Positions 2,309 through 10,508 of a DNA stretch of 42,511 nt are shown piece by piece. Every line of letters starts with the position of its first letter. The stretch's first letter is position 1. The stretch spans positions 1 to 42,511 of the forward strand of contig CAIYOZ010000116.1 in assembly GCA_903927945.1 (NCBI GenBank), given 5' to 3'. The translations under genes were made by a program, and so were the position numbers. The stretch is from an uncultured Bacteroidales bacterium. GTDB taxonomy: Bacteria > Bacteroidota > Bacteroidia > Bacteroidales > Paludibacteraceae. The notes beneath the pieces are model-generated. The model ran no database searches and was not told the origin of the DNA. It saw nothing but the letters and a program-made list of their open reading frames with translations.

Positions 2309-3574
2309 ATGAAAAACACAGTGACAATTTTAATGGTTGCAGTCATTTTATTCTTCAGCCAACAGAATCAATTAAATGCACAAGATATGAAAGAAGAAAT
2401 TCCAAACATCAGCAACTTCTCGGTGGGAAACGAGCTTCCCGAAATGTATTCGAAATACTTTACAGGACACGCTTATCTGGCACCGCTAACTAAAAATAAA
2501 GATTTAAATTGTTCGATCTCGAATGTAACCTTTGAACCGGGCTGCCGGAATAACTGGCATAGCCATGCCGGGGGTCAAATCCTGGTGGTGGTAGGCGGAA
2601 AAGGATATTATCAGGCCAAGGGTGAACCGGCACGGTTGCTTTTACCGGGTGATGTGGTTGAAATACCGGTTAATGTGGTTCACTGGCATGGAGCTGCTCC
2701 GGATAGTTGGTTCTCGCATTTGGCGATTGAGACAAATCCTCAGGTCAGCAAAAATACCTGGTTAGAACAGGTGGATGATGAGCAATATCAAAAAGCAACC
2801 GGGGGTACAAGCAGTAAAGAGATCAACCTGACTATAGCAGCTATTAAAAATCATGAGGAATTATGGCCCGGTTATGAGTCAAAAGCAGCTAAAACTGATC
2901 CTGAACTGATTCAGGTATTCGATAATTTTGCCTTCGATGATGTGATCAGTTCCGGGAATCTGGATACTAAAACCCGGGTGATGATGATCCTGGGGTCGAC
3001 CATTGCATGTCAGGCGCAAACGGAGTATAAAATGATGATGAATGCTGCTCTCAATGTAGGTGTCACTCCGGTTGAAGTGAAGGAAATCCTGTATCAGTCG
3101 GTTCCGTATGTGGGAATTGCCAAAGTGATTGATTTTATCAACCTGACCAACGAGATAATGACCGAACGGGGCATTCAGCTTCCGCTTGAGGGTCAATCGA
3201 CAACCACTCCTGAAACCCGTATGGAAAAAGGACTGGTGTTGCAGAAAGAGATTTTCGGGGAAATGATTGACAAAATGTATGAAAAATCCCCTAAAAATCA
3301 GCTTCATATCCAGCAGTATTTATCGGCCAACTGCTTTGGTGACTATTATACCCGAAATGGATTGGATGTAAAAACCCGCGAGCTGTTGACTTATTCCATG
3401 CTAATCAGTATGGGTGGAACGGAATCGCAGGTAAAAGGCCATATTGCAGGCAATGTAAAGGTGGGTAACAACAAAGAAACATTGTTGACTGTCACCACAC
3501 AACTGTTGCCATACATTGGTTATCCAAGGACTCTGAATGCACTAAATTGTTTAAACGAAGTAATCCCTGAATAA
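2309..3574 (+). CDS. exported cupin plus double carboxymuconolactone-decarboxylase-like protein
   Basis: A 421-residue protein with three modules. It begins with a signal peptide of about 24 residues (hydrophobic VTILMVAVILFF, probable cleavage at LNA/Q). A cupin at about 65-145 carries candidate metal ligands H84, H86, H125 and H127 (motifs WHSHAGGQ and VVHWHG). Two CMD/AhpD-like helical domains follow at about 197-290 and 315-418. The start at 2309 is preferred over 2225 because it places the signal peptide at the N terminus and begins after the SDR reading frame ends at 2280. Cupin-CMD proteins occur in many bacterial redox clusters, but a substrate cannot be assigned. The gene ends one base before the flavodoxin start, so the two are surely co-transcribed. 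Export points to a periplasmic role. Confidence 0.85.
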   Translation: MKNTVTILMVAVILFFSQQNQLNAQDMKEEIPNISNFSVGNELPEMYSKYFTGHAYLAPLTKNKDLNCSISNVTFEPGCRNNWHSHAGGQILVVVGGKGYYQAKGEPARLLLPGDVVEIPVNVVHWHGAAPDSWFSHLAIETNPQVSKNTWLEQVDDEQYQKATGGTSSKEINLTIAAIKNHEELWPGYESKAAKTDPELIQVFDNFAFDDVISSGNLDTKTRVMMILGSTIACQAQTEYKMMMNAALNVGVTPVEVKEILYQSVPYVGIAKVIDFINLTNEIMTERGIQLPLEGQSTTTPETRMEKGLVLQKEIFGEMIDKMYEKSPKNQLHIQQYLSANCFGDYYTRNGLDVKTRELLTYSMLISMGGTESQVKGHIAGNVKVGNNKETLLTVTTQLLPYIGYPRTLNALNCLNEVIPE

Positions 3575-3575
3575 A

Positions 3576-4133
3576 ATGAAAACAAAACTTGTCTTAATTA
3601 CATTACTGGTCCTATTCATGCCAGGTATTCACTCGAATGCGCAAACAACTGGAAAGAAAATTCTGGTGGCTTATTTCTCGCATAGTGGTAATACACGAGC
3701 AGTCGGGTACCAGATTTGCAAAAAAGTAGACGGTGAATCGTTTGAAATACAGGTCGTAAAACCGTACCCAGCCGACTACAACACCGTAGTTGATCTAGCT
3801 AAACGGGAACTTAAAGCAGATTACCGGCCTGAACTTAAAAGCAGATTAAAGAATATCAAACAGTATGATGTGATTTTCATAGGGTATCCCAATTGGTGGG
3901 GTACCTATCCGCAAGCTGTGAAAGTATTTTTATCTCAATATGATTTTTCAGGAAAAACCATTATTCCCTTTTGTACACATGAAGGCAGTGAACTTGGACG
4001 GAGTGTTGCTGACCTGAAGAAGTTATGCTCAAAATCGACTATTCTGGAAGGCCTGGCTATTCGTGGCAGTGCTGCACACAATTCGGATGACCGGATAGAG
4101 GAATGGTTGAAGAAAATTAAGATGATCAAATAA
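3576..4133 (+). CDS. exported flavodoxin (flavodoxin_4 type)
   Basis: A 185-residue flavodoxin-like protein. An N-terminal signal peptide (about residues 1-22, ending near SNA/Q) precedes the flavin-phosphate loop SHSGNTR at 35-41. Then come the [10 protein letters not shown] segment, [12 protein letters not shown], and a C-terminal LAIRGS. These are the signatures of the flavodoxin_4 family, which binds FMN. Flavodoxins are normally cytosolic electron carriers, so a signal peptide is unusual. A close paralogue without a signal peptide lies at 8995-9525. The gene follows the cupin-CMD gene by one base and precedes an AraC regulator by about 9 bp, so the three probably form one operon. Export is inferred from the sequence only. 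Confidence 0.88.
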   Translation: MKTKLVLITLLVLFMPGIHSNAQTTGKKILVAYFSHSGNTRAVGYQICKKVDGESFEIQVVKPYPADYNTVVDLAKRELKADYRPELKSRLKNIKQYDVIFIGYPNWWGTYPQAVKVFLSQYDFSGKTIIPFCTHEGSELGRSVADLKKLCSKSTILEGLAIRGSAAHNSDDRIEEWLKKIKMIK

Positions 4134-4142
4134 TTACAGACT

Positions 4143-8939: not shown

Positions 8940-8947
8940 TAATTTTG
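8940..8947 (+). promoter_or_regulatory. -7 box TAATTTTG for the cytosolic flavodoxin
   Basis: A full TAnnTTTG match 47 bp before the flavodoxin start and only 9 bp after the terminator stem. It would give the flavodoxin / reductase pair its own promoter. No clear -33 TTTG is seen at the usual distance. Confidence 0.5.
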
Positions 8948-8994
8948 CATCAACAAAAAAGAATAATGTAAATTCAAAAACAGCTGAATATAAA

Positions 8995-9525
8995 ATGACC
9001 AATTCAAAGATCCTTATTGCTTATTATTCGCGCAAAGGACAAAATTATGTGGGAGGCAGCATAGTCAACCTTCCTGTTGGAAACACGGAAGTAATAGCTA
9101 CGAAAATTCAGGAATTAACCGGAAATGATTTATTCGAAATTGATACAATAAAGCCTTATCCAACAGATTATACAGAGACTACAAACGTAGCTATGGACGA
9201 GAAAAGGGGAAATGCCCGTCCGGAGTTAACTGCAACTGTAGATAACATGGATTCGTATGATGTTATTTATCTGGGCTATCCCAATTGGTGGGGGACTTTT
9301 CCCATGGCAGTATTTACGTTTTTGGAATCGTATAATTTTTCAGGGAAAACCATTATCCCATTTTGCACACATGAAGGCAGCGGATTGGGTAATAGCGAAA
9401 GCGATATCAAAAAACTTTGCCCGAATGCCAAGGTGCTACCCTGTTTAGCAATTCGGGGTAGCAGTGTAGGCAGGGCAAATAATGAAATTTCAAACTGGAT
9501 AACAAATAATTTAAAACAACAATGA
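8995..9525 (+). CDS. cytosolic flavodoxin (flavodoxin_4 type)
   Basis: A 176-residue flavodoxin without a signal peptide. The flavin-binding loop [23 protein letters not shown] is the long form common in this family, followed by [40 protein letters not shown] and LAIRGSS. It is clearly related to the exported flavodoxin at 3576-4133 (shared [12 protein letters not shown] and YPNWWGT segments). Its stop overlaps the next start by four bases (ATGA), so it is translationally coupled to the reductase. It is probably an FMN electron carrier or a quinone/flavin reductase-like protein; the partner is inferred from position only. Confidence 0.9.
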
Positions 9526-10508
9526 AAATAAGAAAATTGGGAAACAGCGGGCTGGAAGTATCGGCCCTTGGACTAGGTTGCATGGGTATGAGCTTTGGTT
9601 ACGGCCCGGCAGCAGACAAAAAAGAAATGATAGCGTTAATTCGCAAGGCAGTGGAAAGTGGTGTCAACTTTTTTGATACTGCCCAGATATACGGGCCGTT
9701 TACCAACGAAGAACTGGTTGGGGAAGCATTGGCTCCGTTTCGTGACCAGGTGATTATTGCCACAAAATTCGGGTTTCATTTTCAGGATGGAAAGTCGATA
9801 GGCCTGAACAGTCGTCCTGAATATATCAGGCAAACGGTTGAAGACTCATTGAAAAGGCTTAACATAGAAACTATTGATTTGCTTTACCAGCATCGTGTTG
9901 ATCCGAACGTACCCATTGAAGAAGTGGCCGGAACCGTGAAGGAGCTAATTCAGGAAGGTAAAGTAAAACATTTCGGACTATCCGAAGCCGGAGTACAGAT
10001 CATTCGCCGGGCACATGCCGTTCAGCCGGTGACAGCCCTGCAAAGCGAATACTCGTTGTTCTGGCGTGAACCGGAGGCCGAAATCATGCCAACGCTCGAA
10101 GAACTGGGTATTGGTTTTGTCCCTTTCAGTCCGCTTGGCAAAGGCTTCCTGACAGGGAAAATCAATGCAGATACTGTTTTCGAAAGTAATGATTTTAGGA
10201 ATTCAGTTCCCCGTTTCGATTTGGAGAACCGGAAAGCCAATCAACCGTTGGTTGATTTAGTGACTGATATTGCTGCCCAAAAACAGGCAACTCCTGCCCA
10301 GATTGCACTGGCGTGGATATTCGCTCAAAAACCCTGGATAGTTCCGATCCCCGGAACTACAAAGTTGGAACGTTTGAATGAAAATATAGGTTCTGTTTCG
10401 GTAGAGCTTACTGCATCAGATCTGAAACAAATTGAAGAAGCGATTTCAAAAATCACTATTCAAGGCGACCGCTATCAGGATGCAGCACAAAAAATGATTA
10501 ACCGATAA
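9522..10508 (+). CDS. cytosolic aldo/keto reductase, paralogue of the Tat enzyme
   Basis: A 328-residue enzyme of the YajO/AKR13-like type. The N terminus is [22 protein letters not shown], typical of the family. The tetrad is D52, Y57, K82 and H124 ([22 protein letters not shown]). The C-terminal cofactor segment is [15 protein letters not shown]. It overlaps the flavodoxin stop by ATGA. Compared with the Tat copy it lacks the first 50 or so residues but matches it through most of the barrel, so the pair arose by duplication with gain or loss of the export signal. Members reduce ketones and aldehydes with NADPH; the substrate is unknown. Confidence 0.92.

Follow-up and report, generated by a model that had tools for sequence, protein, structure and literature searches.

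In a 42,511-nucleotide stretch of DNA from an uncultured Bacteroidales bacterium (contig CAIYOZ010000116.1, here C116, bases 1-42511; hereafter the window), a relative of Paludibacter whose genome assembly comprises 4.47 Mb in 450 contigs and is given as 97.7% complete, we analyzed a redox gene cluster encoding exported and cytosolic versions of both a flavodoxin and an aldo/keto reductase (AKR). We read it, with a probability of about one half, as an electrophile- or aldehyde-response cluster of the YqhC-YqhD-DkgA type carrying an added exported arm. At the level of sequence, we show the protein families and their leaders, the conservation across phyla of a twin-arginine translocation (Tat) signal on one AKR (TatAKR) together with an exported flavodoxin, and the absence of a repeat-bracketed gene block from the corresponding place in a genus mate. 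A role in carbonyl or electrophile detoxification can reasonably be inferred from the resemblance to YqhC-YqhD-DkgA.

Four genes on the plus strand carry the comparison. The flavodoxin FldX (3576-4133; PF12682, 2e-30) has a general secretory (Sec)-type leader and the flavodoxin FldC (8995-9525; PF12682, 9e-32), of the SRKGQN loop type, is leaderless; the two window flavodoxins score 105.8 and 110.1 bits against Flavodoxin_4 (gathering cut-off 24) and are 50% identical over 154 residues. TatAKR (7628-8794; PF00248, 1.8e-60) has a Tat-type leader and its cytosolic paralogue AKRc (9522-10508; PF00248, 2.7e-75) has none, with 57% identity between them over 312 residues. Leaders were assigned by simple rules and by reading of the sequences, which also placed Sec-type leaders on a cupin-carboxymuconolactone decarboxylase protein (cupin-CMD) and an NTF2-like protein, and none on a DkgA-type AKR. 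Open reading frames (ORFs) and Pfam matches bear out the inventory of the original prediction (two flavodoxins, two AKRs, cupin-CMD, NTF2-like protein and two AraC regulators, all found at their coordinates), and the leader calls bear out its placing of leaders on one flavodoxin and one AKR and not on the other copies. To these we add the DkgA-type AKR, a YqhD-like dehydrogenase, an interrupted short-chain dehydrogenase (SDR) and a 66-bp direct repeat whose two copies bracket about 5.0-8.9 kb.

The signal-peptide and Tat predictions hold among relatives as well. A scan of named genomes yielded 311 TatAKR relatives, of which the best 80 were kept, a sample biased towards the closest; 67 of these 80 loci are at least 15 kb long. 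The twin arginine of the leader (RR) is retained in 79 of the 80 (HR in L110), and a fuller leader rule calls Tat in 78 of 81 TatAKR rows. Every flavodoxin row at TatAKR loci (at least 90 bits) bears an export signal (48/48; 47 by rule and L117 by eye), as do 53 of the 55 matched NTF2-like rows by rule. TatC was found in 47 of the 49 other genomes with TatAKR. Some automatic calls were set aside: 39 lipoprotein calls on AKRc were judged false, the first barrel strand resembling a lipobox, and were not used; the Sec label of the L039_8509 flavodoxin, a cytosolic protein with a long upstream frame, and the Tat label of L111_8723 in the AKR tree, likewise an upstream frame, were wrong; and four Tat calls (L319, L320, L348 and L350) on open frames upstream of the protein's own start were counted as non-Tat.

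In a tree of 150 AKRs, TatAKR and its relatives form a clade of 86 rows (support 100, branch 0.51), 85 of them labelled Tat and the remaining one being L110, that spans Bacteroidota, Pseudomonadota, Myxococcota, Acidobacteriota, Thermodesulfobacteriota, Gemmatimonadota and, to judge by record titles, Cyanobacteria. The nearest to the window protein are L044, L045, L046 and L051, and AKRc lies outside the clade; on this tree, TatAKR and AKRc are old, deep paralogues and not recent twins. D103, Y108, K133 and H178, which we take to be the AKR catalytic tetrad, are invariant in both AKR clades. AKRc also keeps K207, K281 and R284 (97, 97 and 100% of 58 rows), and at the same positions TatAKR has V261, Q335 and H338 (98, 92 and 100% of the 86 Tat-clade rows). 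In a larger set of 258 rows, the R284/H338 position is His in 106 of 107 Tat rows, and among the 151 non-Tat rows it is Arg in 112, Tyr in 30, His in 8 (one of them L110) and Gln in 1. From the AKR cofactor motif, we take R284 of AKRc to be the counterpart of Arg268 of aldose reductase, a basic residue that TatAKR lacks. Arg268 of the human enzyme touches O2 of the adenosine ribose and Lys262 the phosphate of NADP+ (PMC5056380). Cofactor handling is predicted from these residues to differ between TatAKR and AKRc, with the caution that perakine reductase, closest in sequence to both AKRs among solved relatives and an NADPH-dependent plant enzyme, itself has Asn at the H338 position; its residues at the V261 and Q335 positions are basic. 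Convergent loss of the cofactor arginine, an idea prompted by three Tat-AKRs with His outside the first Tat clade, was rejected: about 100 Tat rows of the 258 form one His clade, only three independent pairs lie on supported branches (one in favour, two without a difference), and a separate gain of the Tat signal (L383) retains Arg. The His is, on this phylogeny, the mark of one clade and not of convergence. Three genomes of the Paludibacter genus (G005:C19, G014:C674 and G016:C48) have, roughly 0.5 kb away from their tatC match, a different AKR with 41-42% identity to TatAKR; its alignment starts at the barrel, so that the protein probably lacks a Tat leader.

Of the 50 rows that TatAKR and plasmid loci contribute to the flavodoxin tree (163 rows; L083 is not in it), 49 form one clade and L109 lies elsewhere. 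Within this clade, ten rows from Pseudomonadota or their plasmids comprise nine Tat proteins and one Tat-lipoprotein called as a lipoprotein, and the other 39, from Bacteroidota and one Acidobacteriota, are lipoprotein or Sec rows. This change of export route with export retained suggests that location is the selected trait. FldX belongs to a neighbouring, mostly exported Bacteroidales clade of 23 rows (17 Sec, 1 lipoprotein, 4 signal-less and 1 unlabelled), and FldC to a clade of 14, of which 12 are leaderless, L039 is wrongly called Sec and L284 is a lipoprotein. All 14 loci with the FldC-type flavodoxin are from Bacteroidales, the loci examined in other orders being those of TatAKR and the plasmids. 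Relatives of FldX with solved structures in the same family are 4ici, 4j8p and 3klb, presumably of Bacteroides origin. Tandem Flavodoxin_4 genes occur in L251-L257; those of L251 and L252 pair an exported with a cytosolic form in overlapping open frames, and those of L253-L257 are exported as read. Elsewhere in Bacteroidales, a Met stands behind leader and linker, within the last 10 residues before the flavodoxin core, in 27 of 41 exported SxxGT-type rows (including L171, L172, L174-L176, L178, L196, L197, L203, L213, L223-L226, L229, L234, L237, L245, L247, L249 and L250), compared with 11 of 50 rows belonging to other types and, at TatAKR or Paludibacter loci, 6 of 52; these are raw row counts, uncorrected for relatedness. 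This Met may mean that a leader was grafted onto an intact cytosolic gene, or may serve as a second start from which one gene also yields a cytosolic product.

We then compared gene neighbourhoods, taken as everything within 10 kb of TatAKR and with family matches of at least 90 bits. Among the 67 long loci, the AKRc type is present in 45, the DkgA type in 55, a flavodoxin in 44, the AraC2 type in 45, NTF2 in 41 and CMD in 42 (a CMD match of 70-90 bits is also present in 8 loci); AKRc and flavodoxin occur jointly in 35. The 11 window query families were all absent, at that score, from 40 control neighbourhoods centred on tatC and drawn from 40 genomes with TatAKR, and the association of these genes at TatAKR loci exceeds chance. 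An evenly drawn phylum sample of 395 genomes, including the window's own, gave an AKR match at E 1e-60 in 127. In 17 of the genomes a Tat-AKR was verified, and a hand count on the AKRs chosen for fetching found an AKRc-type gene (at least 66% identical) within 15 kb, among the matches listed, in 11; in G351 the AKR without a leader is less similar (55%), and the other five have none among the matches listed. In the genus (48 genomes, again including its own), the AKRc type is present in 10 and TatAKR in two, the window's genome and G032, where TatAKR and AKRc lie about 25 kb apart.

ORF-neighbourhood clustering of 81 loci was contaminated by antisense ORFs, and only communities that were re-read were used. 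Near TatAKR these comprised carboxylesterases (25 loci), S15/DLH-type alpha/beta hydrolases (29), sorbosone-dehydrogenase-like (GSDH-type) lipoproteins (13), SMP-30/gluconolactonase-like proteins (8) and 2Fe-2S/molybdenum-cofactor (MoCo) oxidoreductase subunits (18); the hydrolases and carboxylesterases bear leaders, and the molybdenum hydroxylases have Tat leaders in the rows read. Such exported companions fit the electrophile reading with its exported arm, and they also speak for its main rival, a catabolic pathway in which exported enzymes would start on a specific outside compound, for example a plant phenolic, sugar acid or lactone, and the cytosolic AKRs would finish it. However, we noticed no transporter, TonB/SusD pair or ring-cleavage gene in the window cluster, the composition differs between loci, and broad-range reductases with two AraC genes fit a stress response equally well. 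We regard a catabolic role as unlikely, though the strongest of the alternatives.

The history of the window arrangement bears on a second alternative. Compared with the genus mate L039, window positions 2305-5021, 9012-9468 and 9522-10510 match at 80-82%, and positions 5022-8876 have no orthologous match, a paralogous AKR match apart; in their place L039 has an ORF that by eye resembles zinc-type alcohol dehydrogenases. The block concerned, AraC2-DkgA-NTF2-TatAKR, is 3.9 kb long and has a GC content of 39.7% vs 44.0% and 42.6% on its sides. It lies between two copies of a 66-bp direct repeat (4965-5030 and 8876-8941, without strand; 89% identical), composed of TTGAGCC direct repeats (TTGAGCC-N14-TTTGAGCC) and a terminator-like inverted repeat. 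Copy 2 precedes FldC-AKRc and runs, at 8931-8947, into a promoter-like TTTTTG..TAATTTTG, which by its consensus would be of the Bacteroidota type; no promoter-like sequence was seen at copy 1. The double TTGAGC motif was found twice in its own genome, both times at the block edges, and single copies of a similar element lie at the clusters of L038, L039, L040, L041 and L043 and, in Flavobacterium L081, about 1 kb past an AraC1 homologue. The element is a candidate operator or attenuator of AraC1. To judge from these comparisons, it looks as if a widespread AraC2-DkgA-NTF2-TatAKR unit was inserted into a resident cytosolic cluster and the element duplicated. Because the block appears to have been placed inside an older cytosolic cluster, the matched pairs would derive in part from the merging of two gene sets.

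It could accordingly be argued that unrelated redox genes have simply gathered in a mobile accessory region, with no joint function across compartments. The pairing in the window seems to have arisen in part by insertion of the 3.9-kb block, in Paludibacter mates the cytosolic arm stands by itself except that G032 has both arms, about 25 kb apart, and relatives are found on plasmids, with TatAKR matches at E 1e-100 in 113 plasmid records, of which 36 reach at least 60% identity. On the other hand, the same families recur together in many orders and in many phyla (the AKRc type in 45, the DkgA type in 55 and a flavodoxin in 44 of 67 loci, vs 0 of 40 controls), and flavodoxin export is kept while its route changes, which makes a mere by-product of mobility improbable. 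The set on an E. coli IncFII/IncR plasmid comprises a TatAKR relative, a two-component system, a cupin, a CMD, a flavodoxin, a hydrolase, two more AKRs, a LysR regulator and an SDR. On the E. coli plasmid NZ_CP021881.1 (L124), typed as conjugative, the redox set lies between an IS110-type transposase and a recombinase and adjoins arsenic genes and a heavy-metal-type two-component system. The least probable alternative, a response to oxidative or reactive-chlorine stress in which exported flavodoxin and TatAKR would form a periplasmic repair or reducing chain with an MsrPQ-like role, can point to this two-component system, since HprRS, broadly of the same type, senses hypochlorous acid, but the system is present in one of three annotated records, we noticed in the window cluster neither a methionine sulfoxide reductase nor a membrane quinol donor, and literature searches gave no such link by title and abstract.

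Turning to the remaining genes, the cluster runs in the order YqhD-like dehydrogenase, SDR, cupin-CMD, FldX, AraC1, AraC2 (on the minus strand), DkgA-type AKR, NTF2-like protein, TatAKR, FldC and AKRc, followed downstream by panB-like and dnaK-like ORFs, so named by eye; the Pfam scan covered ten window proteins, and the other ORFs of positions 1-16000 were read by eye only. The YqhD-like iron-type alcohol/aldehyde dehydrogenase (123-1289, plus strand) also stands in the cytosolic cluster of two genus mates, L040 and L041. The SDR (1435-2109, plus; Pfam adh_short_C2) has an in-frame TGA at 2107, past which the frame stays open (1435-2247) and continues into a typical SDR C-terminus; a pseudogene, recoding and an assembly error are candidate explanations. 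The exported cupin-CMD (2309-3574, plus; PF07883 and PF02627) has the Sec-type leader MKNTVTILMVAVILFFSQQNQLNAQ. AraC1 (4143-4964, plus; PF22200 and PF12833), with an ExsA_N-type N-terminal domain, also occurs close to genes of this set in L038, L039, L041 and L043. AraC2 (5120-6058, minus; PF12833) diverges from the DkgA-type AKR (6216-7067, plus; 29% identical to TatAKR or AKRc), and the exported NTF2/SnoaL-like (DUF4440) protein (7106-7597, plus; PF14534) lies between the latter and TatAKR.

On the electrophile-response reading, the cytosolic arm would consist of AraC1, the YqhD-like dehydrogenase, the SDR, FldC and AKRc, plus DkgA from the inserted block, with its reductases presumably reducing reactive carbonyls with NADPH. 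The exported arm, in the periplasm, would consist of TatAKR, the NTF2-like protein, FldX and cupin-CMD, and the AraC regulators would turn the arms on upon encountering an electrophile. TatAKR would fold with its nicotinamide cofactor in the cytoplasm and leave through Tat with the cofactor inside, and the Bacteroidota flavodoxin would cross unfolded by Sec, a route that implies uptake of flavin mononucleotide (FMN) outside the cytoplasm. A reactive carbonyl or quinone may then be reduced, or disproportionated, by the exported arm before entry into the cell.

In textbooks, AKRs and flavodoxins are cytosolic proteins that need soluble NAD(P)H and FMN. A bolder proposal, to which we give rather little credence, is that the loci represent a widespread, undescribed extracytoplasmic carbonyl/quinone module, made up of a Tat-exported AKR adapted to working outside the cytoplasm, its cytosolic sister and an AraC-type switch. 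If this were true, the captive nicotinamide cofactor would never be exchanged and would be recycled either between two substrates outside the cytoplasm or with the exported flavodoxin as partner. The seven-phylum Tat-AKR clade, with an exported flavodoxin in about two-thirds of the long loci, suggests a long-kept chemistry outside the cytoplasm; versions of the exported half in many bacteria point to uncharacterised chemistry at the cell surface, and its occurrence on conjugative-typed plasmids means that the gene set is able to spread.

Several observations weigh against an electrophile response run in matched compartments. The YqhD-like and DkgA-type proteins fall below the equivalog cut-offs of their NCBIfam models (NF011717, 564.3 bits vs 645; NF008598, 272.2 vs 425), and in the same NCBIfam scan neither AraC regulator reached such a cut-off. 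The window arrangement itself looks like a merger of two clusters. The original prediction had given each exported protein a close cytosolic twin; this fails for cupin-CMD and the NTF2-like protein, each of which is single in the window at a threshold of 70 bits. The pairs of AKRs and flavodoxins are, for their part, deep paralogues. As TatAKR lacks the basic residues K207, K281 and R284 that AKRc keeps, its cofactor and chemistry may differ and identical chemistry on both sides cannot be assumed. The pairing recurs for the AKRs, in 45 of 67 long loci and 11 of 17 sampled genomes; for the flavodoxins, an exported one stands beside FldC in only 6 of 14 loci (the window, L039, L201, L251, L252 and L258), all Bacteroidales, several of the others being short contigs. 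Co-occurrence of the exported and cytosolic copies is thus frequent and not universal: 22 of the 67 loci lack AKRc, 23 lack a flavodoxin and 13 lack both, and 8 of the 10 genus genomes with an AKRc-type gene have no TatAKR. Finally, TatA and TatC were not found in a search of the contigs of the window's own genome, one of the misses in a relatives search that found TatC in 54 of 60 genomes. This absence is uninformative, because the contig with hisC (G000:C378:416-1429) ends 415 bp past the gene, and in three of the four tat loci fetched from genus mates (the exception is G001) tatA-tatC follow hisC at a distance of about 2.5-2.7 kb. The DUF362 gene that follows tatC in genus mates is likewise not found there (best match 30%). 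We do not conclude that Tat was lost; its genes probably fall in an assembly gap, and most other genomes with TatAKR have TatC.

Judged by titles and the starts of abstracts in open-licence papers, which is weak evidence of absence, none of the papers listed describes this cluster or such an exported AKR or flavodoxin; PMC12288474 concerns other flavodoxins. The structures 4ici, 4j8p and 3klb, of the FldX family, are described just as putative flavoprotein or flavodoxin, and export is not addressed. Perakine reductase resembles TatAKR as its sequence-nearest solved relative and differs in being a plant enzyme and in carrying basic residues where TatAKR has V261 and Q335. A precedent for exporting a nicotinamide cofactor and recycling it between two substrates is provided by glucose-fructose oxidoreductase (GFOR) and aldose-aldose oxidoreductase (AAOR), which are described as Tat-signal enzymes with bound cofactor, that of AAOR being assumed bound (PMC4628093). 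However, these belong to the Gfo/Idh/MocA family, and TatAKR matched only PF00248. The molybdenum hydroxylases near TatAKR recall the periplasmic aldehyde oxidoreductase PaoABC of E. coli (PMC4273604): both cases would involve aldehyde chemistry outside the cytoplasm by way of Tat, and 2Fe-2S/MoCo genes lie near TatAKR in 18 loci. PaoABC is, in contrast, a molybdo-flavoenzyme that oxidises aldehydes, whereas TatAKR is an AKR barrel, and no molybdenum hydroxylase subunit was found by Pfam among the ten window proteins scanned, or by eye among the other ORFs of 1-16000. The closest parallel is YqhC-YqhD-DkgA of E. coli, where yqhC diverges from yqhD-dkgA and the latter genes are activated by glyoxal or furfural (PMC5297802). 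The window shares with it an AraC regulator divergent from an AKR (AraC2 at 5120-6058 on the minus strand and DkgA from 6216 on the plus strand), a YqhD-like dehydrogenase and soluble carbonyl reductases, and goes beyond it in its exported arm of TatAKR, flavodoxin, NTF2-like protein and cupin-CMD, its second type of AKR and its second AraC regulator.

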